From Spirochaetales bacterium (GTDB taxonomy: Bacteria > Spirochaetota > Spirochaetia > DSM-2461): a stretch of 36,527 nucleotides of DNA. Below the pieces are notes generated by a model that worked only from the letters and a program-made list of their open reading frames with translations, did not search any database and was not told the origin of the DNA. Positions 11,983-24,114 of the stretch are shown here, one piece after another; position 1 is the stretch's first letter, and every line of letters starts with the position of its first letter. The stretch is taken from NCBI GenBank assembly GCA_028532905.1, contig JAQQAM010000192.1, forward strand, positions 1-36,527, written 5' to 3'. The translations under genes were made by a program, and so were the position numbers.

Positions 11983-12066
11983 GCCGGTGTGGTGGAATTG
12001 GTAGACACCCGAGACTTAAAATCTCGTGGGCTTAGGCCCGTACCGGTTCAAGTCCGGTCACCGGCA
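11983..12066 (+). tRNA. tRNA-Leu (anticodon UAA)
   Basis: An 84-base class II tRNA. Acceptor GCCGGTG pairs with CACCGGC (12059-12065), with discriminator A at 12066. The anticodon arm is CGAGA-CTTAAAA-TCTCG with anticodon TAA. A long variable arm follows, and the T loop is GTTCAAGTC. CCA is not encoded. The phage integrase lies immediately downstream, so the 3' end is the likely integration site. Confidence 0.95.
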
Positions 12067-12068
12067 CA
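12050..12068 (+). other. Probable attL core within the tRNA-Leu 3' end
   Basis: Tyrosine integrases of temperate phages usually recombine at tRNA 3' ends. The integrase gene starts about 110 bases from this tRNA and everything to its right is phage-like. The exact core needs the attR copy, which lies beyond the window, so these limits are only nominal. Confidence 0.5.
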
Positions 12069-12114: not shown

Positions 12115-12175
12115 AATGCCCTTGTGGTTGATAAATTGGTTGACTGTAAGCCTTATTCAGGTTCTAATTTTAGGT

Positions 12176-13321
12176 ATGAAGCCCTATAAATTGTGGTGCC
12201 GGAAGGACCGAAAAGGTGTATTTTATATTCAGTTTGCCCATACACCGGGCAAGTGGATTACAACAAATTGTACAGACCGGGATGATGCCATCCGCTGGGC
12301 AGAAGCGAACCGGGAAGCGGCCGGACAGATACGGAAGAAGATTCCCACCCTGAAGCAATTTGCCGACGGCTTTTTTGTTCCAGGGAATGAGTTCTGGATG
12401 AAGCGATTAATGCGGAAAAAGAAGAGCTTTGCTTCTGACTATTTCCGTGCCCACCAGGGGCGTCTGGATAATTATATTATCCCTGAGTTCGGCAGCCGGT
12501 TGATCAGCAGCATTACCACCGTTGAGATTGATAACTGGTTTCTGGATCTTGAGTCTGTCCGGACAAAGAATGAACTTTCTGATAATGCCAAGAACAAGGT
12601 TCTGCATGTCTTCCGGATCATCCTGGAGGAAGCCAAGTACCAGGGGTATGTGAAAGAGAATGCTGCATCTGCAGTAGAAGAGATCAGTGAAGAGAATCAG
12701 GAACGAAAGCACTTCACAGATATAGAAATGAGAAAACTGTTTCCAGATGACAGGGATGAACTCCTCCGGATCTGGCAGGGGCTTAAGTGGACTGTGTTTT
12801 TTATGATCATGAAAGATACTGGCTTCCGCCCTGGAGAAGTCGCAGGATTAACCAGAAGAGCTTATTACAGCTCTGTGGGGGGAATCTATACCACAGGCTC
12901 TATCGATACTGTGACGGGCCAGTATAAGGATTCTATTAAGACTACAAAGAAAGGGAAGGGGTATAAACTCGGGCTTCTTGAAGATCTTACTCTGCAGCTG
13001 CTGGATGATTACCTGGAAGAAACAGATCCGGAAATTGATGAACTGATTTTCCCCGCTGCAAATACGGAAGGCATTAAGGTTGAAACTTCATTGAAGCATT
13101 TTAAGCTTTCCGCCAGAAGGGCAAAGGTTGATCTGCAGGGACGGACTCAGTATTGTCTCCGTCACTCTTTTGAAACACGGAAATTGATGGATCTGGATCT
13201 TGAAACTGTTAAGGAGTTGATGGGTCATACCAGATATAGAAAAGAATATGATCATAGAAGTGGGGAAGATAGGTTAACTAAGTTGAAATCCGTATTACTT
13301 GAAAATTCTAGTTCATTATAA
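12176..13321 (+). CDS. int: Tyrosine-type phage integrase
   Basis: Site-specific recombinase of 381 residues that integrates and excises the prophage at tRNA-Leu. An N-terminal arm-binding part is followed by a SAM-like core-binding domain (residues about 80-180) and a catalytic domain. Catalytic residues: Arg in DTGFRPGE, the box II segment YCLRHSFET (Tyr replaces the usual first His), His in LMGHTRYR, and a Tyr near the C-terminus (EYDHR). The start at 12176 follows a weak AGGT. The 3' end overlaps the tail of the converging minus-strand gene by 14 bases. Confidence 0.92.
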   Translation: MKPYKLWCRKDRKGVFYIQFAHTPGKWITTNCTDRDDAIRWAEANREAAGQIRKKIPTLKQFADGFFVPGNEFWMKRLMRKKKSFASDYFRAHQGRLDNYIIPEFGSRLISSITTVEIDNWFLDLESVRTKNELSDNAKNKVLHVFRIILEEAKYQGYVKENAASAVEEISEENQERKHFTDIEMRKLFPDDRDELLRIWQGLKWTVFFMIMKDTGFRPGEVAGLTRRAYYSSVGGIYTTGSIDTVTGQYKDSIKTTKKGKGYKLGLLEDLTLQLLDDYLEETDPEIDELIFPAANTEGIKVETSLKHFKLSARRAKVDLQGRTQYCLRHSFETRKLMDLDLETVKELMGHTRYRKEYDHRSGEDRLTKLKSVLLENSSSL

Positions 13322-14318
13322 AGTCATCCAAAATATAGGGGATTTCACTTTCTGTTCTTGTATATGATGGCATAGCATTGTGTTTAACTAAGTGCTGCTT
13401 TTGCTTGTCAAGCTTCTTGAATAATCCAATATTGTAAAAAGTGTCTTCTGTCTCTGATACAATGATATGATTGATAAATTTGAGAATATTGTCTTTTTCA
13501 CGTATTAATAATTTTTTCATAAGTATAGACCAACCCTTTCTCCATATAATATTGAAAGCTGAACCATCTTCATGTGGGAAAAAGGATACGCCAAAATAAT
13601 CAAAGTTGTTAGCTATTGGGAGAATGCTTTTAAAAAACGATCTTCTATTGATAACTGTACTCAATGCTATTCCATATTTCTTAGAAGTAGTGATAGAAGC
13701 AAAGCCAAACTGGTTTTCAAGTTTATTACTTTTAATTGCTTCATATAGTAAAGTAAAGTCACTATATAGTTTTCTTAGTAATTTCTTGTGTTTTCTTGAT
13801 TCTCTTTTAGCTAATTTATTTCTACCTTTCTTTATTAAGCCCATTTCTATAAAATCAAACATTTCTTCTTTCATTCTTATTTCATAAGAGATACTCCTAA
13901 GAAAAAGAAGACAATTATGCCTAAGAGATCTTTCATCAAGATCCTCATCTTCTATCTCTTTAAATATTTCATTGTCATGTTTTTGACAAAAACCATTGAA
14001 AACAGAAGCTTGTTTAATACCCATCTCTTTAAATTTCAGCTCCCCATCAATGAATGATTCAATCTCTATCTGATTCATAGATTTTCCATAGACCTTTCCG
14101 GCTTCAGAAATGCTTTTTAAATGTTTACTTTTCTGGATAGAATGAGATTTAATAGGCTTACAAATGCAATCCGGGACAATGCAGACTTTTTCAATTTCTC
14201 GTAATTCTTTTATTACAGATCCAAGATCTTTTTTGTATTCACTAATCAGTTTCTTTTTTTCATCATTATTGAAACTGTAAAGTTTATTTCCATAACGAAA
14301 TTGATTTTGGGTTTTCAT
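13308..14318 (-). CDS. Cys/His-rich accessory protein, function unknown
   Basis: A 336-residue lysine-rich protein in an AT-rich island between integrase and repressor. The N-terminal third holds a possible zinc site: CIVPDC (about residues 46-51), then KSHSIQ (about 58-63), and about 50 residues later GFCQKHD. This C..C/H...C..H spacing recalls a treble-clef or HNH-like finger, but no full nuclease motif is seen. The remainder is mainly helical. The position suits a lysogenic accessory gene such as phage defence or superinfection exclusion; that is inference. A short palindrome sits just upstream. It is transcribed toward, and overlaps, the integrase 3' end. Confidence 0.7.
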   Translation of the reverse strand: MKTQNQFRYGNKLYSFNNDEKKKLISEYKKDLGSVIKELREIEKVCIVPDCICKPIKSHSIQKSKHLKSISEAGKVYGKSMNQIEIESFIDGELKFKEMGIKQASVFNGFCQKHDNEIFKEIEDEDLDERSLRHNCLLFLRSISYEIRMKEEMFDFIEMGLIKKGRNKLAKRESRKHKKLLRKLYSDFTLLYEAIKSNKLENQFGFASITTSKKYGIALSTVINRRSFFKSILPIANNFDYFGVSFFPHEDGSAFNIIWRKGWSILMKKLLIREKDNILKFINHIIVSETEDTFYNIGLFKKLDKQKQHLVKHNAMPSYTRTESEIPYILDDFIMN

Positions 14319-14340: not shown

Positions 14341-14357
14341 AGAGATATGATATCTCT
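14341..14357. promoter_or_regulatory. Palindrome AGAGATA-TGA-TATCTCT
   Basis: A perfect 7-bp inverted repeat with a 3-base centre, in the 79-base gap between the four-gene operon and the Cys/His-rich gene. It lacks a T-tract, so an operator is more likely than a terminator. Confidence 0.45.
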
Positions 14358-14397: not shown

Positions 14398-15135
14398 TTA
14401 CGAGAAGTATCTTAGTACAGTAAATATGTAAGTATTCACCCCATTGGCAATTCCCAGGAATTGTTTTAGTTCAAGAAATGATGTGATGCTGGCATATACG
14501 CTATCTTTTGTCAAAGTGATATTCAGTTCCTGTTTACGTTTTTGTACAGTGAAATTGAAGGACCCGTAATTTATTTCCTTAACTTTTACATGATTGAACA
14601 TAGCAGAAAATGTCGGGTTTAGATTCTGGTATTGAGAAAGGATAAAATAAGTGGGCTTTTTTCTTATGATGACTGATAGTTTATCTTCAATAATTTTTAG
14701 ATCTTCCTCGAAGTCATTGTATTCTCTATTGTTCACTTTTAGGTCTTCAATATACAAACAGAGAGAATTCCCATCTTGGTTAATAGTCATATTGTAATTA
14801 AAGCTTTCAGTTTTAAGATCAAAAGCAATTTTAGATAAACTATTTTGAGCAATTCTCTTGATATCGAAGTGGTTGAACATGTAATCGACAACTTCTTGGG
14901 GTGAGGGTGGTTCATTAATCTCATCGTATTCAAACCGGAATTCAATAAAATTTGAAAATCTATTTAATAGCTTATCAATCCATATTTTTCCAATTATCAG
15001 TAGAGATTTATAATTGAAAACTGCTAAAAGAACAGATGCAAGTAAGCTTATCAATCCAGTTATTGGAAAGCTTTCACCTTTGGTGATAAAGAGATCAATT
15101 ACTGTGATACCTAGCAGTACTAATAGAGGAGCCAT
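14398..15135 (-). CDS. Membrane-anchored protein, last gene of accessory operon
   Basis: A 245-residue protein not matched to a known family. The N-terminus has two hydrophobic segments (APLLVLLGITVIDLFI and ITGLISLLASVLLAVF), followed by a soluble domain of about 190 residues that probably faces the cytoplasm. That domain alternates strands and helices and has no recognisable catalytic motif. The start ATG lies 2 bases after the stop of the preceding gene with no ribosome binding site, so translation appears coupled. Together with its neighbours it may form a membrane-linked complex, for instance in superinfection exclusion; this is inference. Confidence 0.65.
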   Translation of the reverse strand: MAPLLVLLGITVIDLFITKGESFPITGLISLLASVLLAVFNYKSLLIIGKIWIDKLLNRFSNFIEFRFEYDEINEPPSPQEVVDYMFNHFDIKRIAQNSLSKIAFDLKTESFNYNMTINQDGNSLCLYIEDLKVNNREYNDFEEDLKIIEDKLSVIIRKKPTYFILSQYQNLNPTFSAMFNHVKVKEINYGSFNFTVQKRKQELNITLTKDSVYASITSFLELKQFLGIANGVNTYIFTVLRYFS

Positions 15136-15137
15136 AA

Positions 15138-15821
15138 TTATTTAAGAATATTATCATATATATATTCAACCAATTTTAACTGTTTCTCAAGTGTATCAGG
15201 TTCTGAATAAAGAATTATTCCACCTATTTCAGTTATACCAACAGTATATTCAACTTCATCTACAGTTATTTTAAACATTACTATTGAAATTGTGCCTCCT
15301 ATTCTTAAATTCCTTTTGTAATCATCGCTACTAATTACGTTATCTGAAAAGATAGCTTCAGCTTTCAAACCGAGTTTTTTCATTCCTGATCCTGAAAACC
15401 ATACGCCAGAAGCTGCTAAGCTTTTTTTCACAATAATTTCTTCAAGCTTGTAATTTTTCATTGAGAAGGATAGATATTTTTTTATTTCTGTATTTGTTTG
15501 AATTTGAGCATTTAATGCCTTAAATATTTCTCTTTTAGTGTCAAGAATACAAATCCCATCAGTTCGAGTGAATACATTTACATTATAGATTTCAAAAACA
15601 TCATCAATACCAAGTCTATTTTGTTCACCACTTTCTGAAATAGTCACATATACCTTTTTGTCTAAATCCTTTGACTTGACTCCAAATGATATTGCTGAAT
15701 GAGCAAACTCAGCATAAGTTTCATAATTTTTGATCCTCATTGCTGGAGCATGTTTAATAATTATCTCTTCTTCTTTATTTGTTGTGTTAAACTTCATCTC
15801 ATTAATGTAAAATGCTTTCAC
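15138..15821 (-). CDS. Unknown protein, third gene of accessory operon
   Basis: A 227-residue soluble protein with no recognised family. The start is a GTG at 15821 with AAGGAG six bases upstream; it overlaps the end of the preceding gene by 20 bases. The sequence is rich in beta strands (KKVYVTISESG, ISIVMFKITVDEVEYTVGIT) and contains a Gly/Ser-rich stretch GVWFSGSGMKKLG near residue 140. No signal peptide or membrane segment is evident. The close packing with its neighbours implies that the four products act together. Confidence 0.65.
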   Translation of the reverse strand: MKAFYINEMKFNTTNKEEEIIIKHAPAMRIKNYETYAEFAHSAISFGVKSKDLDKKVYVTISESGEQNRLGIDDVFEIYNVNVFTRTDGICILDTKREIFKALNAQIQTNTEIKKYLSFSMKNYKLEEIIVKKSLAASGVWFSGSGMKKLGLKAEAIFSDNVISSDDYKRNLRIGGTISIVMFKITVDEVEYTVGITEIGGIILYSEPDTLEKQLKLVEYIYDNILK

Positions 15822-16095
15822 TTGAATCTCCTTGAAATGTATCTACTGTAATTGAATTATGTTGACTGCTTGAGCTGGATAGTAAGCCTTCAGATTCCTT
15901 GATCTTGTTATAAACCCAACCATCTGTCATATCGTTCATGCATGAAGGAGTAATTCCTATTACTTTTCTGACTCCATGGTTATTATAAAAGCCAAACTTA
16001 TATAAGCCATTTTCATAGGTGTCTTCTATGGCATTTTTCTCAACACCTAGTGCAGTTTCGATAACATCATATACATCATCAGAATTAAGTGACAC
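15802..16095 (-). CDS. Small unknown protein, second gene of accessory operon
   Basis: A 97-residue acidic protein starting with GTG at 16095, preceded by AAGGAG at good distance. It overlaps the first gene by 11 bases and the third by 20, with different frames at each step. Residues 1-70 look folded (DDVYDVIETALGVEKNAI, GLYKFGFYNNHGVRKVIGIT); the tail is Ser-rich (LLSSSSSQHNS). No family recognised. The small size and overlaps suggest an adaptor or an antitoxin-like partner, but nothing in the sequence proves this. Confidence 0.6.
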   Translation of the reverse strand: MSLNSDDVYDVIETALGVEKNAIEDTYENGLYKFGFYNNHGVRKVIGITPSCMNDMTDGWVYNKIKESEGLLSSSSSQHNSITVDTFQGDSSESILH

Positions 16096-16537
16096 TTATT
16101 ACTCCTTCCAGGAAAAAGTTTAATGGATCTATGATTGGCTGGTCTCCTAGCCAAAGTTCTTTGATTCGGTCAACTCTGAAACTTTTTACAGCTCGCTCTC
16201 CCTTTTTGATAGCTTTGATGTAATGGATATCATTTTTCCTGTATATTTCCTTAATCCGTAGCTCATATGATACAGGCTCTGGCGAGCTTGATTTTTTATA
16301 CATCATTGTCATTTCAATAAAATCAAGATCTTTTTGGAATTCGGGAGGAGCGGTTTCTTTTCTCGGTTTTTTCTTGGGCTTCGGATTTGATAACTCTGTA
16401 AAAGCCTCGAATCCCATTTGTATAAGATAGTTGATAGCTTCATTTTGAGAAGTGTTTGTCTGTTTTTGGAATTGATTGACAATATCTAAAACCGATGGCA
16501 TTAGATTAATTTCACTCTTTTTCTTTCCGAACAGCAT
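16085..16537 (-). CDS. Putative DNA-binding regulator, first gene of accessory operon
   Basis: A 150-residue protein. The N-terminal segment PSVLDIVNQFQKQTNTSQNE and the following AINYLIQMGFEAF resemble a ribbon-helix-helix or related small DNA-binding fold. The C-terminal part (YELRIKEIYRKNDIHYIKAI, then RAVKSFRVDRIKELW) resembles the WYL-type beta module found in regulators of prokaryotic defence loci. The ATG at 16537 has AGGAG seven bases upstream; the longer frame to 16627 runs through the promoter and operators. The palindromes just upstream suggest that it represses its own operon. Family assignment is tentative. Confidence 0.6.
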   Translation of the reverse strand: MLFGKKKSEINLMPSVLDIVNQFQKQTNTSQNEAINYLIQMGFEAFTELSNPKPKKKPRKETAPPEFQKDLDFIEMTMMYKKSSSPEPVSYELRIKEIYRKNDIHYIKAIKKGERAVKSFRVDRIKELWLGDQPIIDPLNFFLEGVISVT

Positions 16538-16569: not shown

Positions 16570-16679
16570 TTAACTTTAAAATTATATCAGCTATATTACA
16601 CAATGGAAGGCTAACTTTAGTTAGCAATGGTTTTCTGACTGTTTAGGTGGTCTTTTGAATGAACACTAACTAAAGTTAT
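16570..16679 (-). promoter_or_regulatory. Operator palindromes and extended -10 promoter of accessory operon
   Basis: CTAACTTTAGTTAG (16611-16624) is a near-perfect palindrome. CTAACTAAAGTTAT (16666-16679) matches its reverse complement at 13 of 14 positions. A half-like copy TTAACTTTAA lies at 16570-16579. On the minus strand TGATATAAT (16589-16581) is an extended -10 element. One site would cover the start region, one the -35 region and one lies 55 bases further up, a layout suited to cooperative repression. Confidence 0.6.
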
Positions 16680-16740: not shown

Positions 16741-17118
16741 TTATCCGGCAGACTGCCCTTCTTTCTTATCAGCATCCAGATTATAGCCATGTGACTCCAT
16801 ATATCCTTCCAGATAAGCATCTACCCTGGGTATCAGCTCCGGATGAAGTCCAAGTTTAATGACCAGGGAACGTAATTCAGGATCTTTTTTCATATACATC
16901 TCTGCTGGATCAAAGCTTGTTTCCCCTGTCAGTAATGCTTCTACAGAAGTTTTAAGTATTCTTGAAATCGTTAAAGCAGCATCAGCTTTAGGGATTGCAC
17001 CTTTCTTGTCCCATTGCTGAATTGTAGATTTTGATATTCCAGACATTCTTGAGAGTTCTGCTTTTGTAATACCTGTGAGCTTTAATTGTTTTTCAAGGTT
17101 CTGACTAAAATTTCCCAT
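16741..17118 (-). CDS. CI-like phage repressor (XRE family)
   Basis: A 125-residue protein with an N-terminal helix-turn-helix of the Cro/CI (XRE) type at about residues 8-60 (ITKAELSRMSGISKSTIQQW). The C-terminal 60 residues are short and lack the Ser/Lys self-cleavage domain of LexA-like repressors, so induction may need an antirepressor or another signal. It is divergent from the early operon and faces operators in the shared control region. It is most likely the lysogeny repressor. The ribosome binding site is weak (AGAG), and the putative -10 lies about 18 bases upstream. Confidence 0.8.
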   Translation of the reverse strand: MGNFSQNLEKQLKLTGITKAELSRMSGISKSTIQQWDKKGAIPKADAALTISRILKTSVEALLTGETSFDPAEMYMKKDPELRSLVIKLGLHPELIPRVDAYLEGYMESHGYNLDADKKEGQSAG

Positions 17119-17218: not shown

Positions 17219-17398
17219 ATGAGTGCTGAAAAACGAACTTATAAAAATATCCCTATACCAACAGAACTACATCGAAAACTGAAAGCTCTTTCAGTATTTC
17301 AGGAAAGGAAGCTACAGGACATCACTGAAGAAGCCCTTTCTGGGTACCTGGATCAGAGAGCCGGTGATTCGGGTGAAGTCATTGTTATCAGGAAATAG
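17219..17398 (+). CDS. Ribbon-helix-helix protein, first early gene
   Basis: A 59-residue protein beginning MSAEKRTYKNIPIPTELHRK. The core (IPIPTELHRKLKALS, then LQDITEEALSGYLD) is a typical CopG/Arc ribbon-helix-helix, so a dimeric DNA-binding regulator is likely, playing a Cro- or Arc-like role. The ATG lies 7 bases after the -10 element, at or next to the expected transcription start, so the message appears leaderless. The TAG stop lies inside the first copy of the 16-bp palindrome. Confidence 0.75.
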   Translation: MSAEKRTYKNIPIPTELHRKLKALSVFQERKLQDITEEALSGYLDQRAGDSGEVIVIRK

Positions 17399-18029: not shown

Positions 18030-18106
18030 GGACTGGTTGTGTAATTGGTAGCACCCTCGGAGATTGAGAGGCCTCCGGCGTTCGGGTTCGAGTCCCGGTC
18101 AGTCCA
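18030..18106 (+). tRNA. tRNA-like element 1 with enlarged anticodon loop
   Basis: Seven-base acceptor GGACTGG pairs with TCAGTCC (18099-18105), discriminator A. The D arm GTGT-AATTGGTA-GCAC carries the conserved GG, and the T arm TCGGG-TTCGAGT-CCCGG is normal. The anticodon region is abnormal: CGGAG (18058-18062) pairs with CTCCG (18073-18077) around a 10-base loop (ATTGAGAGGC) instead of 7, and three bases instead of one precede the stem. No single anticodon fits. Either a decayed phage tRNA or a tRNA mimic. Confidence 0.6.
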
Positions 18107-18432: not shown

Positions 18433-18663
18433 ATGGAAAAAGTTAATTTTCTCACCTGCGGGTTTCATCTCGTTAGAAATGGTGAGTTTAAAAGATGTGG
18501 AGAAAAAGCAACTCACCATTTTCATGGGAAATGCCTTTGTCCTGAATGTGCAAAATACATGAAAATGCGGGGATTGCCGGTATTCAAGATGCAGAAATCT
18601 ACAGTTGAAAAAAAACTGAAAGATCTGAACAAGGCTGAACAGAAGGAGGCTGTGGCTGTATGA
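18433..18663 (+). CDS. Small zinc-finger protein
   Basis: A 76-residue protein with a dense Cys/His cluster: CGFHLVRNGEFKRC, then HHFHGKCLCPEC, suggesting one or two bound zinc ions. The C-terminal 25 residues are a charged helix. The ATG at 18433 has GAGGT upstream; a longer frame from GTG 18385 has no such signal. Its stop overlaps the parA start (ATGA), so it is translationally linked to the partition genes and may modulate them. The region 18316-18432 upstream holds nothing else recognisable. Confidence 0.65.
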   Translation: MEKVNFLTCGFHLVRNGEFKRCGEKATHHFHGKCLCPECAKYMKMRGLPVFKMQKSTVEKKLKDLNKAEQKEAVAV

Positions 18664-19427
18664 AAACTATTGTCTTTCCTTCAATCAAGGGTGGGTCTGG
18701 TAAATCTTCCAATTCCATCATGCTCTCCAATTTTCTGGGACAGGCTGGAATGCGGGTACTGTGTATCGATATGGATATAAATAACTCCATGTCATTCTAC
18801 TATGTAAGTGATGCTGAATTGATGGATACCCACTCCATAGCGGATGCACTGCATTCAGGTGATCTTTCCGGAAATGTAATTCCAACGGATCAGCTGGATA
18901 ATATCCACATTATTCCGTCTTCATTTCACCTGGTGAATCTCAGAGCCATCAGTCATATGACCCTGAAAAGAATGCTTCCTCAGGTATCAGAATCCTACGA
19001 TTACTGCATCATCGATTCCCCACCCACCTGGGACAATATTGTTTTGAATGCGCTCTATGCAGCAGACCTGGTAATCACTCCTGTCAGCCTGGCACAGTGG
19101 GACTGGAAAGGGGCAAGCTTCTTCCGTGATCAGATTGTCCAGGATCTTGGCCCTGAATTTCTTGAACGCTGGTATCTTCTGATCAACTACTTTGTGAGGC
19201 CCAGAACAGACAATCCGGAAAACTTCACAAATCAGCTGATTCAGCTGTTCAATGATTCCTTCGAAAATATCCTTCCTTTCAGGATTCCGGAGACTACTCT
19301 GGTAGAACGGTATATCGATCTTGATGAAGGGATCTCAAAATCAAAACGGAAAATCAAGCTGTTTTCTGCTGTCCAGGAACTGGTCCAGTTTGTGACTGGC
19401 AGCCCTCTTGATGTAGAGGTTTTCTGA
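18660..19427 (+). CDS. parA: ParA-family partition ATPase
   Basis: A 255-residue ParA/MinD-type ATPase. The deviant Walker A motif KGGSGKSSN is at residues about 10-18, Walker A' is LCIDMDIN, and Walker B lies in YDYCIIDSPPTWDN. No N-terminal helix-turn-helix, so it is the short (type Ib or chromosomal-like) form, in which ParB rather than ParA usually regulates. Such ATPases move plasmids or low-copy prophages on the nucleoid. It overlaps the zinc-finger gene upstream and parB downstream (TGATG), forming one operon. Confidence 0.9.
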   Translation: MKTIVFPSIKGGSGKSSNSIMLSNFLGQAGMRVLCIDMDINNSMSFYYVSDAELMDTHSIADALHSGDLSGNVIPTDQLDNIHIIPSSFHLVNLRAISHMTLKRMLPQVSESYDYCIIDSPPTWDNIVLNALYAADLVITPVSLAQWDWKGASFFRDQIVQDLGPEFLERWYLLINYFVRPRTDNPENFTNQLIQLFNDSFENILPFRIPETTLVERYIDLDEGISKSKRKIKLFSAVQELVQFVTGSPLDVEVF

Positions 19428-20284
19428 TGGGAAAGACTCTATCTGTAAATAAGAATCCTGGGAAAAAGGATATTACTGGAGGACTGAGCATAGCCCAATT
19501 AGGTGATGAAATCAGGGATTTGAAGACCCGTGTACCAGTGATGATACCTGTGGCTTCCATCCCGAAAATGCCGGAATTTGAAAATCTCTTTCCTATCAAG
19601 GAAGGAAACCTGGAATCAATTTCTGATTCCATCAGAGTAAATGGTTTTGACGGGAAATTTGCTGTCATTATCGGGACTTTCCCTGATGGAACCCGGTCCC
19701 TTGTGGCCGGTTTTACAAGAACAAAGGCTGCGGGCATCAATGGTCTTTCTGAAATTCCCGCCTGGACTCAGGGTTTCCCTTCTGTAGATGCTGCTTTGGA
19801 CTGGGCAATTCATGAACAGTTGGACCGGCGGAATCTCACTGAATCTGAGATTTATGAGTATGTCAAAAAGATTGACCAGATAACTGGTAAAGGAAGGCAA
19901 TCAGATGGTTTCAAAGGAAAGTCATCCCAGAGAACTGCAAATATTGTTGGTGTCTCTGCACGGAAAGTGGAGCAGATCAGGACTGTTGAAAAGGATGGGT
20001 CTGATCAGCAGAAGGAAGCTATCCGTACAGGTCAGAAATCTGTTAATCAGGCCTACAGGGAGATAAAGGATCAAAAGAATGAGAAAGCGCAACATTGCGC
20101 TAACTCATCCCCGCCGGAAAGAAAGTGGTCTGTTGAGATTGGAAAATCTGATATTCGCCTGGTGCAGGGTGAGGAAATAATCAGTCTTGTGAATTGTTCC
20201 GCTATGGATCTGATGTACAACGGTGCCCCCTACAAGGCGATTCGGAAAGCTGTAGAGGAGTATATGGAGAAGGTTCTTGGCTAA
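19427..20284 (+). CDS. parB: ParB-like partition protein
   Basis: A 285-residue protein with the ParB/sulfiredoxin N-terminal fold at about residues 40-125 (FPIKEGNLESISDSIRVNGF, then DGTRSLVAGFTRTKAA). A helix-turn-helix-like segment follows at about 165-190 (SSQRTANIVGVSARKVEQIR). The usual GERR motif is replaced by GFTR, so CTPase activity is uncertain. The C-terminus has a helical part for dimerisation. The third 16-bp palindrome lies inside this gene. It should load on a centromere and be moved by ParA. Confidence 0.82.
   Translation: MGKTLSVNKNPGKKDITGGLSIAQLGDEIRDLKTRVPVMIPVASIPKMPEFENLFPIKEGNLESISDSIRVNGFDGKFAVIIGTFPDGTRSLVAGFTRTKAAGINGLSEIPAWTQGFPSVDAALDWAIHEQLDRRNLTESEIYEYVKKIDQITGKGRQSDGFKGKSSQRTANIVGVSARKVEQIRTVEKDGSDQQKEAIRTGQKSVNQAYREIKDQKNEKAQHCANSSPPERKWSVEIGKSDIRLVQGEEIISLVNCSAMDLMYNGAPYKAIRKAVEEYMEKVLG
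20086..20101. repeat. 16-bp palindrome, copy 3 (inside parB)
   Basis: Third exact copy of AGCGCAACATTGCGCT, here coding within parB. Conservation inside a reading frame supports a DNA-level role such as a ParB loading site. Confidence 0.75.
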
Positions 20285-20510
20285 TCGGTCCCGGATATCC
20301 AAGGCTGAGTTTATTCACAAAGCTGAGCTTTCGTATCACTGGGAGTTGGTTGAGAAAGAGATAACGATTCTCATTGACCTGGCACGTATCCATTCAGGAA
20401 GTGTTGTCCTGGGTCAATGGGATATTTTTCAAAGGCGATTCCCTGGGCATCCTGCCTGGGAGTTTGCCGAGTGGTTTGAAATGGTAATGGGAGAAGAAAA
20501 TGAATCCTGA
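20277..20510 (+). CDS. Small phage protein, unknown
   Basis: A 77-residue protein starting with TTG at 20277 inside the end of parB, with GGAGAAGG just upstream. It is mostly helical and has aromatic residues (SYHWELVEKEITILID, HPAWEFAEWFEMV). No family recognised. It overlaps the next gene by 11 bases. Confidence 0.55.
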   Translation: MANRSRISKAEFIHKAELSYHWELVEKEITILIDLARIHSGSVVLGQWDIFQRRFPGHPAWEFAEWFEMVMGEENES

Positions 20511-20745
20511 CCTTGAATTGATATGTGGGCCCATACGATTGCTGATACGGCTTGATTATGACCATCAGGATATCCTGGACTTTATTTACAGCTATACACA
20601 GACACGGAATGGAGGAGGGCGGATTGGTCCTATAATGCGATTGGCAGAGGCTCTTGATAAATTGCTTGAGGCAGGTATTCCAGGCACTGAGATTTCCGAC
20701 TATGCCTATGAGTATGTTGAAGGGGTAGTTTCATGTTCTGTATAA
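20500..20745 (+). CDS. Small phage protein, unknown
   Basis: An 81-residue acidic, helical protein (LDYDHQDILDFIYSYTQTRN, LAEALDKLLEAGIPGTEISD). No recognised family or motif. GGGAGAAG precedes the start, and both ends overlap its neighbours, as expected in a packed early operon. Confidence 0.6.
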   Translation: MNPDLELICGPIRLLIRLDYDHQDILDFIYSYTQTRNGGGRIGPIMRLAEALDKLLEAGIPGTEISDYAYEYVEGVVSCSV

Positions 20746-21326
20746 GCTGTCAAAACTATATTGATGATAAATGTTCAATAGAAAAAATCTATGCATCAGG
20801 GATGCTCAAAACCTGTCCGGCTTTTCTCTCTGGTGAAGATGTCATCACAGCTAACGGGGCCAATTTCCAGATTTGTGAAGAGACGATCACTCTACCTGGG
20901 CCGGTAGGATCTCCCCATATTGTAGTGACGCCTTTCCGTGTTCCTGGAGGATCGGGATGGAAAGGGAAGAGCATGATCTGTTTTGAGGGAGTCGGGAGCA
21001 TCAGGACTGGTGATACTGAGTCACTACCTTTGGGGTCTGTATGGAATGTCTGGCAGGATGTAAGAACGGTGCTGATTGAGAGGAATCACCCTAAATTGAA
21101 TGAACTGATCCCTCTGGTGCAGAGAAGGATTGAGTTTGACTATTCTGTTGTGACTTACTCACATGTTCCAGATGTGGAACCAGCCCCTTCAGAGACTTCC
21201 TCTGAGCCGGTTAAGCAAAAGAAAATTGTTATCCCTTCGTTTGAAGGAAAAGACATGCTTGAGGTTTCTGCTGCTGATAATACCTGCAAAGAACATGGTG
21301 ATCAGATGGATCTCTTTGCGGTGTAG
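20733..21326 (+). CDS. Phage protein with N-terminal Cys cluster, unknown
   Basis: A 197-residue protein. The N-terminus MFCISCQNYIDDKC with a further Cys at about residue 28 suggests a small zinc-binding module. The middle (VVTPFRVPGGSGWKGKSMIC) looks beta-rich, and a Pro/Ser-rich linker near residue 150 leads to a short tail ending QMDLFAV. That tail resembles a short clamp-binding or partner-docking peptide, but this is speculative. No family recognised. Confidence 0.6.
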   Translation: MFCISCQNYIDDKCSIEKIYASGMLKTCPAFLSGEDVITANGANFQICEETITLPGPVGSPHIVVTPFRVPGGSGWKGKSMICFEGVGSIRTGDTESLPLGSVWNVWQDVRTVLIERNHPKLNELIPLVQRRIEFDYSVVTYSHVPDVEPAPSETSSEPVKQKKIVIPSFEGKDMLEVSAADNTCKEHGDQMDLFAV

Positions 21327-21334
21327 GGGGGCTT

Positions 21335-21622
21335 ATGTTGTATAGGACAATTCTACATTTACCAGTTGTTGATCCTGAACATGTCCCTGTCCATATTCGG
21401 ATTGATAAGTTTACAACAGATGCTGCTGCCAGGGGGATACAGATCCGGGGGAAGAGAACTCCCAGAGCTTACTATCAGCTTTGGAAAGAGGATGTTTGCA
21501 TAATGATCGGTAGTGCTGATGAAATTGCAAACGAATTGGGAACTCAGAGAAGCATGATCAGTCAATATGCACAGCGTAAGGCAGTTTATGACAAGGAGTT
21601 CAGAATTGTTAAAGTCAATTAA
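21335..21622 (+). CDS. Putative helix-turn-helix protein
   Basis: A 95-residue protein with a probable helix-turn-helix in the C-terminal half (ADEIANELGTQRSMISQYAQ). The N-terminal half contains a basic patch (RGIQIRGKRTPRAYYQLWKE). A G-rich ribosome binding site (AGGGGGG) precedes the ATG. It could be an early regulator or could bind the nearby origin; no family is recognised with confidence. Confidence 0.6.
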   Translation: MLYRTILHLPVVDPEHVPVHIRIDKFTTDAAARGIQIRGKRTPRAYYQLWKEDVCIMIGSADEIANELGTQRSMISQYAQRKAVYDKEFRIVKVN

Positions 21623-21633
21623 AGGAGGTCTGA

Positions 21634-21834
21634 GTGATAAAAGGAGATTACGAATACTTCAAAGGAATCCAGAATCCGAGTCAGGATGATTATCTGGATC
21701 TTTTGAAGTTCACAAATCGTTTAATACGGATACTCCGTAGAGAGCGGAAGCAGAAAGCTGCCGCCAATAAAAAAAATCGAATATTATCCGCTAAAGCGGC
21801 AAATAGAATGAAAGAGGTTAATGACAATGCATAG
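21634..21834 (+). CDS. Small basic phage protein, unknown
   Basis: A 66-residue, very basic protein (LIRILRRERKQKAAANKKNR) starting with GTG at 21634 after the strong site AAAGGAGGT. Its charge suggests nucleic acid binding. It lies just before the replication gene. Confidence 0.55.
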   Translation: MIKGDYEYFKGIQNPSQDDYLDLLKFTNRLIRILRRERKQKAAANKKNRILSAKAANRMKEVNDNA

Positions 21835-21846
21835 GATGCTCAATAC

Positions 21847-23037
21847 ATGAGTCCCGTTAAGGGACAAACCGCAGAAAACCCCCTTGATCAATCCGGGGGT
21901 ACTGCATTTTTCGACAACCAGTTTGAACTGGATTGTGATAATGATTTTTTGATAGTTTCTGTCAAAATGTATAAGTTTTTTATGGCCCATGGGAAGGATG
22001 GTCTGGAGGCAAAACAGCTCTATGACCATCTTCTTTTTGCGTCCAGGGTACAGGGCTCAAAGGCTGTAAAAGCCAATGTGAATTACATCAAAAATGGACT
22101 TGGATGGGGAGTTGCCAAGGTGAAAAAAGCCAAGGCTTTTCTCTCAGCTGCAGGGCTTATTCAGTACTCTCAGAATCAGGGTAAAGATGGTCAATTTGGC
22201 GATCATAAGATTATCCTGAAGTCCACTTGGGATGCAGAATCTTTGATGGCATGGATACAGAAAAAGGCTGAAAGGAGTGGTCAGAATGATACCGGTGGTA
22301 CGGAAATTGACCCACCGGAAAATCAGGTTTTGCCTGTGGATAACTCCGGTGGTTCAGAAATTGAACCTACGGCAGATATAGCGTCCCCAGAATTAGAGAC
22401 ACTAAATAGCCGGTGGGTCAATTCACCGCCCATCGGGTCCACCGCCCCACCGGTGACAGAACACAATTATAAAGGAAGTTATAAAAAAGAAATCTCTCCG
22501 CAAGAGGGAAAACAGGAGGTTGTGGATAACTCAGCTGAAAATGAAGAATCCCTTCCGCCTGCGGCGTCCTCTCCACCTACGGCGGGTTTTTCTTTGGCAG
22601 AGTTGAAAGAGGAGATGATCCGTCTGGTGAAGACCAGGACAAAGGATTCCATGTTCTACTTCACTCCACTTGAAAACAAGATCCTCCTGGAATGTTTCAA
22701 CAAGTATGGTCCAGAGTGGGTTCTCAAGAGATTTGAGTCATACATGAAATCCAAGACTCCTTCCCAGATAGATCGGTTTCATTCAACTGATTTCCCGAAG
22801 GTTCTCAAGAGAGCATCAGAGAAAAGCTTCCGGCAAGCTGCACCGGCAAAACCTGATGAAGCTGTGTTCCATCAGTGCCCTGTCTGTGAAAAGACCTGGT
22901 CAGCTTCCTCGACGCTCTCTTCCTGCCCTGGCTGCGGGATGGAGGTGAAGGACTTCAATGATCCTGATGAGGTGAATGCTCACCGCCAGTGGTTTGAAGA
23001 GTTCCAGGAGGCTCGGCAGAAGAGGGCTATGGGATGA
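21847..23037 (+). CDS. Phage replication initiator/organiser-like protein
   Basis: A 396-residue protein in three parts. Residues about 25-115 form a winged helix of the replication-initiator type (FLIVSVKMYKFFMAHGKDG onward). Residues 140-260 are a low-complexity linker rich in Pro, Ser and Glu. The C-terminal part has a helical domain (about 260-330, DnaD- or DnaT-like position) and ends in a zinc ribbon CPVCEK...CPGCG. The linker DNA carries iteron-like repeats, as in lambda O, where the origin lies in the initiator gene. The start ATG has no strong ribosome binding site. The role is inferred from architecture. Confidence 0.65.
   Translation: MSPVKGQTAENPLDQSGGTAFFDNQFELDCDNDFLIVSVKMYKFFMAHGKDGLEAKQLYDHLLFASRVQGSKAVKANVNYIKNGLGWGVAKVKKAKAFLSAAGLIQYSQNQGKDGQFGDHKIILKSTWDAESLMAWIQKKAERSGQNDTGGTEIDPPENQVLPVDNSGGSEIEPTADIASPELETLNSRWVNSPPIGSTAPPVTEHNYKGSYKKEISPQEGKQEVVDNSAENEESLPPAASSPPTAGFSLAELKEEMIRLVKTRTKDSMFYFTPLENKILLECFNKYGPEWVLKRFESYMKSKTPSQIDRFHSTDFPKVLKRASEKSFRQAAPAKPDEAVFHQCPVCEKTWSASSTLSSCPGCGMEVKDFNDPDEVNAHRQWFEEFQEARQKRAMG
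22291..22455. repeat. Iteron-like cluster, candidate phage origin
   Basis: AATTGACCCACCGG (22305-22318) recurs as its exact reverse complement at 22410-22423. The unit beginning CCGGTGGT and containing GAAATTGA occurs at 22292 and again 54 bases later at 22346. Palindromic CACCGGTG is at 22448-22455, with ACCGGT at 22291. All lie in the linker of the replication gene. Confidence 0.55.
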
Positions 23038-23228
23038 ATCAGCAGTCAGGTGAACAAGATATCATGACTCCTGAGGTTCAGAGACATATCAGCCAACTGA
23101 TTGAGAGAATGAAAGATACACCCTATGGCGATGTAGGGCTTGTATTCACAATGAGCGGAGGTAAGGTGTCTCTAATTAAGCCCATTAACCTTCCAGTTAT
23201 TAAGGCCTTAAAGCATGAAAAACCTTGA
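23034..23228 (+). CDS. Small phage protein, unknown
   Basis: A 64-residue protein that overlaps the replication gene stop (ATGA) and the recombinase start. Contains EVQRHISQLIERMKDTPYGD and a possible strand-rich end. No family recognised. Confidence 0.5.
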   Translation: MNQQSGEQDIMTPEVQRHISQLIERMKDTPYGDVGLVFTMSGGKVSLIKPINLPVIKALKHEKP

Positions 23229-24114
23229 AGAAAATCTAATTTCCGCTCATTCGCGAAATTTGTACAGAAATGGCAAATATATGCAGATATGCAAGAGATT
23301 TAGCGTTTGGTGCCTTGATCAGGGAATTCCGGAAAATATAGGGAATGAAATTGAGTGGCTGGAATCTCTGGTTGATCAGGGAATGGCTGCGGCAACAATC
23401 AAGACCTATGCTTTTGCCGTAAAGGCCTATCTGATTGACAATCTTGACTGCTCTGATATGACTGAGGATGAGAAGATTTTGACTCACTACAGAATGGAGT
23501 CCGAGTTCCGTTCTTTCCGCTTGCCCAGAGATGCGAAGAAAAAAAACCGGGATATTGAGATCACCTTTGAGGACATTGTCCAGATCCTTCAGGCCTCGAA
23601 ACCAAGAAGTAGAGTGATTATAGAGTTCCTGGCAAATACGGGAGTCCGGGTTTCTGAACTGACTGGTGTGAGACTATCTCATGTGAGAAAGCGGAGGGAG
23701 TCAGAGTTCCATGTCAGGATCATGGGGAAAGGCAGGAAACAGAGAGTCGTCAGAATCAAGGGAGGTCTTCGGAAGCGGATTGCAAAGGAGTTCCCGGATA
23801 CTCTCAGCTTCCTGTTTGAATCATCTCCCGGACAACCTTATTCCAGTCAGGGGATTCATGATCTGGTGAAAAGAGCAGGGGAAAGGGTTGGGATCTATGG
23901 TCTTCACCCCCACAGCTTCCGTCACTACTTTGCCACAACACTCCTGAAGAAGACCTGGAAGCTGAAAGCAATCTCTGAATATTTGGGTCACAGTGATGAG
24001 GCCACAACATTGATCTACATCGGAAAGGACTGTTTGACCATGGATGATCTTGATCAGGGATTCTATGGGAACCGTGGGAAGAATGGGAGGAAAGGCAATG
24101 CCGTACAAAGCTAA
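23215..24114 (+). CDS. Second tyrosine recombinase (XerC/XerD-like)
   Basis: A 299-residue recombinase of Xer size. The N-terminal SAM-like domain (residues 1-90) is followed by a complete catalytic set: Arg in TGVRVSELTG, Lys in MGKGRKQR, HxxR in HPHSFRHYFATTLL, His in YLGHSDE and Tyr in TTLIYIG. Unlike the integrase at 12176, every key residue is canonical. It lies in the replication region, not beside an att site, so resolution of multimers of a circular phage genome is more likely than integration. It overlaps the HNH gene by 17 bases. Confidence 0.88.
   Translation: MKNLEENLISAHSRNLYRNGKYMQICKRFSVWCLDQGIPENIGNEIEWLESLVDQGMAAATIKTYAFAVKAYLIDNLDCSDMTEDEKILTHYRMESEFRSFRLPRDAKKKNRDIEITFEDIVQILQASKPRSRVIIEFLANTGVRVSELTGVRLSHVRKRRESEFHVRIMGKGRKQRVVRIKGGLRKRIAKEFPDTLSFLFESSPGQPYSSQGIHDLVKRAGERVGIYGLHPHSFRHYFATTLLKKTWKLKAISEYLGHSDEATTLIYIGKDCLTMDDLDQGFYGNRGKNGRKGNAVQS

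Follow-up and report, generated by a model that had tools for sequence, protein, structure and literature searches.

The window analysed here, a stretch of 36,527 nucleotides from a Spirochaetales bacterium, carries spirochaete chromosomal genes on its left side (encoding flagellin, FlaA, PilZN3, L20 and an aldolase), followed by a prophage that is inserted adjoining a tRNA-Leu(taa) gene (Table 1). Starting from this tRNA gene, the order is an integrase gene on the plus strand and then, on the minus strand, a gene encoding a 336-residue protein, an operon of four genes and the gene of a CI-type repressor. Rightward past the repressor, genes encoding ParA, ParB, a DnaD-like replication protein, a second tyrosine recombinase, the terminase and the portal protein are found. 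Another genome of the same genus (G002) shares the tRNA gene and the left flank but continues from there with different sequence that has no integrase, which is in line with an insertion at the tRNA-Leu gene here. The right attachment site of the prophage was looked for and not found.

Table 1. Positions of the operon, its candidate control elements and the flanking prophage genes in the window.
Feature	Position	Strand	Remarks
tRNA-Leu(taa)	11983..12067	+	presumed integration site; same site without integrase in same-genus genome G002
Tyrosine integrase	12116..13321	+	convergent with cargo block; PHROG integrase E 5e-31
Fifth cargo gene, 336 aa	13308..14318	-	putative zinc-binding family; C46, C51, H59, C111, H114 and D115 invariant in six sequences
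Palindrome AGAGATATGATATCTCT, 17 nt	14341..14357	.	possible separate operator, between gene 4 and fifth gene
Gene 4, 245 aa, ATG	14398..15135	-	hydrophobic hairpin at N-terminus, soluble domain at C-terminus; relatives searched, none found
Gene 3, 227 aa, soluble protein, GTG	15138..15821	-	SD CAAGGAG; relatives searched, none found
Gene 2, 97 aa, acidic protein (pI 4.4), GTG	15802..16095	-	SD GAAGGAG; relatives searched, none found
Gene 1, 150 aa, basic regulator (pI 9.3), ATG	16085..16537	-	RHH-like N-terminal half by eye; WYL-like C-terminal half; SD CAGGAG
Extended -10 promoter element TGATATAAT, putative	16581..16589	-	44 nt before gene 1 start
Operator A (candidate), GCTAACTTTAGTTAGC	16610..16625	.	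7-nt arms; at -35 position of putative promoter
Operator B (candidate), TAACTAAAGTTA	16667..16678	.	55 bp centre to centre from operator A
CI-type prophage repressor	16741..17118	-	upstream of operon, same strand; Pfam Phage_CI_repr E 8e-8

The early region of the prophage shows further features. The ParA, ParB-like, DnaD-like and second tyrosine recombinase genes occupy positions 18660–24114, and a related order occurs at a further locus (L047), which suggests a phage that can be maintained as a plasmid or that is descended from one. Moreover, a tRNA-Ile(gat) gene lies within the early region of the prophage (18030–18106), and a 59-residue open reading frame on the plus strand (17219–17398), divergent from the repressor gene and located where a Cro-like gene would be, has a ribbon-helix-helix look by eye.

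The four genes of the operon had been described in an initial annotation of the same DNA, and open reading frame calls reproduced their span (14398–16537), strand and lengths, the overlaps of 11 and 20 nucleotides and the last gap of 2 nucleotides. The longest stop-free run comprises 247 codons, whereas shuffling the same bases 500 times gave longest runs that averaged 82 codons and never exceeded 157, so that the reading frames are not due to chance. The strong ribosome binding sites before GTG starts, claimed in the same annotation, apply to genes 2 and 3, whereas genes 1 and 4 begin with ATG. Good Shine-Dalgarno sequences precede genes 1, 2 and 3; none is present upstream of gene 4, the translation of which probably relies on translational coupling.

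The AT-richness of the operon compared with the rest of the phage was confirmed: its genes have a GC content of 29–36%, compared to 44% for the integrase gene, 45% for the early region and 50% for the structural genes. The block with this composition spans the 336-residue gene through gene 1, meaning that the cargo of foreign composition comprises five genes and not four. The description as a compact accessory operon with its own WYL-like regulator, its own candidate operators and a foreign composition is thus sustained; the neighbor at 13308–14318 had been missed.

Candidate operators and the WYL-like regulator

The gap upstream of gene 1 has a length of 203 nucleotides and holds two palindromes and an extended -10 element. 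Exact copies of the TAACTNNAGTTA palindrome occur at 16612 and 16667 and nowhere else in the window, and with one mismatch allowed four copies are found compared to 0.64 expected. When the intergenic gap was shuffled 3000 times, two palindromes with a common arm and spacer arose in 8 cases. The "private operator set" of the initial annotation is thereby borne out as a window-unique pair of candidate operators 5' of gene 1. The motif TGNTATAAT occurs once in the window, at 16581–16589 on the operon strand and 5' of gene 1; as 0.9 occurrences are expected in the whole window, its position is informative and not its presence. With TGNTATAAT at this site, operator A falls at the -35 position, and a private promoter for the operon is likely. 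A generic promoter scan returned 21 promoters versus 20.8 expected and is uninformative alone.

No minus-strand terminator-like site was found between the repressor gene and gene 1, and repressor transcripts could therefore also extend into the operon. This arrangement, with the operon directly downstream of the repressor gene on the same strand, would suit a circuit of phage immunity or induction, in which gene 1 acts as an additional regulator that feeds on the CI-type switch, while genes 2–4 modulate lysogeny or induction. However, the operon has its own putative promoter and candidate operators, its composition is unlike that of the phage core and a set of three proteins including a membrane protein would be unusual for a switch, making such a circuit improbable.

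For gene 1, the WYL-like module proposed in the initial annotation found support in its C-terminal half. Residues 66–150 match the Pfam WYL family (PF13280) with an E-value of 0.00068 and 20.0 bits, and the whole protein matches with an E-value of 0.0024 and 18.2 bits, scores that lie 1.8–3.6 bits under the curated cut-off of 21.8 bits. The PADLOC WYL model gives a weak match (E 0.006), and by eye a likeness to the WYL core is seen in the segment NDIHYIKAIKKGERAVKSFRVDRIKEL. In the N-terminal half, the segment SEINLMPSVLDIVNQFQKQTNTSQNEAINYLIQMG is reminiscent of a ribbon-helix-helix (RHH), and by this visual comparison that half may form such a fold; neither a helix-turn-helix (HTH) nor an RHH was detected in gene 1 by a Pfam scan (HMMER) or a genome search with PF01402. 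A possible second copy of gene 1 or of the operon was rejected: 103 bases at a contig end, adjoining a phosphate-binding transport gene (G000:C256:1-103, L025), are identical to 16261–16363 within gene 1 and probably represent an assembly overlap.

WYL domains have repeatedly been tied to the regulation of defense and of the DNA-damage response (PMC9122588, PMC10693628). As an example, the WYL repressor CapW controls a defense operon via promoter palindromes (PMC9122588), resembling gene 1 and its upstream gap in combining a regulator of the WYL type (WYL-like in gene 1) with palindromes in the promoter region. However, CapW has an N-terminal winged helix-turn-helix, whereas gene 1 encodes only 150 residues with no detectable winged helix-turn-helix, and CapW acts in CBASS, no gene of which was found here with PADLOC. 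The second comparison is RspWYL1 of type VI-D CRISPR-Cas systems, in which an N-terminal RHH is followed by the WYL domain, an order that gene 1 may share. In contrast to gene 1, whose RHH is seen by eye only, RspWYL1 carries RHH motifs in tandem together with a dimerization domain at its C-terminus, and it binds single-stranded RNA; no Cas gene is present here.

Orphan proteins of the operon and the neighboring fifth gene

Gene 2 encodes an acidic protein, as originally described, and hydropathy places a hydrophobic hairpin at about residues 1–53 of the gene 4 protein, which is predicted to be membrane-associated. Genes 2–4 gave no above-chance match in Pfam, PADLOC, PHROGs and NCBIfam, including searches with domain halves at loose E-values, and no relatives in samples of about 300–400 genomes of the class and phylum (spirochaetes). 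Likewise, no match was found for genes 2–4 in phage and plasmid records or in IMG/VR, nor for genes 3 and 4 among solved structures or in GTDB contigs, the contig scans requiring near-identical eight-residue stretches and hence capturing close relatives, while distant ones can escape. Low-scoring genome matches (E 0.004–0.09 per genome over 300–400 genomes) were rejected, being of about the number expected by chance. The structure predictions proposed in the initial annotation (AlphaFold without alignments) yielded unusable models with a pLDDT of 32 for gene 3 and 43 for gene 4.

The initial annotation had expected a defense system to be found as the same gene set in other prophages and defense islands. 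No second copy of genes 2–4 was detected in the collections searched, which weakens its case for defense on its own terms and leaves co-occurrence and conservation without support from relatives. As genes 2–4 were searched with single sequences only, the missing matches are weak evidence. Orphan prophage cargo is common. The missing relatives would also suit decaying or orphan phage genes without selected function, a reading that is very improbable given intact frames far beyond chance length, Shine-Dalgarno sequences, coupled overlaps and paired candidate operators. Overall, the operon is real, well-built and unfamiliar, and it lies in a credible place.

Overlapping genes, a small acidic partner ahead of a larger protein and palindromes of the autoregulation type are also what an addiction cassette in the style of toxin-antitoxin systems would present, in which the product of gene 1 or 2 neutralizes that of gene 3 or 4 and gene 1 autoregulates. 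We consider this unlikely, as no toxin or antitoxin family was matched in the operon (Pfam, NCBIfam, PADLOC) and as it consists of four genes and not two.

In contrast to genes 2–4, the fifth cargo gene has true relatives, with E-values down to 5e-36. No library gives the family a name; it carries the motif AHSIQ...GFC.KHD with invariant cysteine and histidine residues, and the invariant Cys/His/Asp set across six sequences suggests a metal site. Some relatives contain a SEC-C motif at the N-terminus. The relatives' loci (L041–L045 and L061–L075) include 15 further relatives in viral contigs. Among the chromosomal loci, two of five adjoin known defense genes: in one genome (G054, L042) the relative follows BrxL and PglZ of a BREX system, and in another (G246, L043) it is flanked by HEC-05 and TmtA genes. 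The family is thus a defense candidate in its own right. Using the fifth gene as a bridge, genes 1–4 were found to be absent from all 20 loci of its relatives that were read, and the gene is set apart from the operon by a gap of 79 nucleotides and its own palindrome. At least one gene of the slot therefore has a defense-type neighborhood, an association that holds for the slot and not for the operon.

The integrase–repressor slot and a possible role against other phages

The spot between integrase and repressor often holds prophage genes that protect the host from other viruses. The operon lies in this interval, as do exclusion genes of the lysogeny module, and the assignment to a superinfection-exclusion-type place agrees with other temperate phages (PMC7693887, PMC3952083). 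In lactococcal phages, genes between integrase and repressor give superinfection exclusion and the characterized Sie proteins are commonly membrane-associated (PMC7693887); similarly, Ltp of the Streptococcus thermophilus phage TP-J34 is encoded in the lysogeny module in the same interval (PMC3952083). Sie2009, SieF7/2AB and Ltp thus share with the operon the location of accessory genes, and their membrane-associated product corresponds to the one predicted for gene 4. However, no sequence relation between these cassettes and the operon was found. To our knowledge, the lactococcal Sie and Ltp cassettes have neither a WYL-like regulator nor private operators. Three sister prophages, with an 80% identical terminase (G003), a 73–75% identical integrase region (G006) and a related early region (G012), lie on contigs that end before the slot.

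Position in the slot does not by itself confer resistance, since for phage Dub35A all genes of the integrase–repressor slot were cloned with no resistance effect (PMC7693887). Genes 2–4 might be non-defensive cargo of lysogenic conversion that changes host physiology or the cell envelope, with gene 1 merely sensing a metabolite. The result for Dub35A is in agreement with such cargo, as are the missing match of the operon to a defense family in PADLOC and the combination of a membrane protein with a soluble partner, which suits many roles. The recurrence of the neighboring gene family at defense loci and the repeated ties of WYL domains to the regulation of defense and DNA damage (PMC9122588, PMC10693628) point in the other direction, and we regard the non-defensive reading as a serious alternative that is nevertheless rather unlikely.

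The explanation that we favor, if tentatively and short of an even chance, is that of an autorepressed lysogenic-conversion cassette in the prophage lysogeny module, most likely directed against other phages, the anti-phage part being drawn from the context. As an insertion into this module of the spirochaete prophage, the cassette would be expressed in the prophage state under the control of its first gene. The gene 1 protein, probably a dimer, would bind both TAACTNNAGTTA candidate operators, and as operator A occupies the place where the extended -10 promoter would be contacted at -35, this binding would repress the operon. Repression would then be relieved by a ligand of the WYL-like domain. 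The translation of genes 2–4 would be coupled; the gene 2 protein, small and acidic, probably partners the 227-residue gene 3 protein, and both may act with or through the hairpin-anchored gene 4 protein, most likely blocking or aborting the infection by other phages. The superinfection-exclusion or anti-phage role suggested in the initial annotation accordingly draws support from the accessory operon, its regulator, its slot and the defense-linked neighbor family, whereas a second copy and a match to a defense effector are missing: in PADLOC 2.0, genes 2–4 have no matches and gene 1 matches WYL only (E 0.006). It is possible, yet doubtful, that genes 2–4 represent three new families forming a new anti-phage system with a WYL-like regulator, beside a second, independent new defense gene, that of the putative zinc-binding family, in a prophage defense slot.

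If the operon is defensive, it would add a WYL-regulated, membrane-linked system from the prophages of spirochaetes, a poorly sampled group. With a single regulator over three orphan genes that are intact, it offers a clean and small target for phage challenge. Moreover, the family of the fifth gene, with its 15 relatives in viral contigs and others beside BREX or HEC-05/TmtA genes, is an independently testable defense candidate and the most testable by-product of this analysis.
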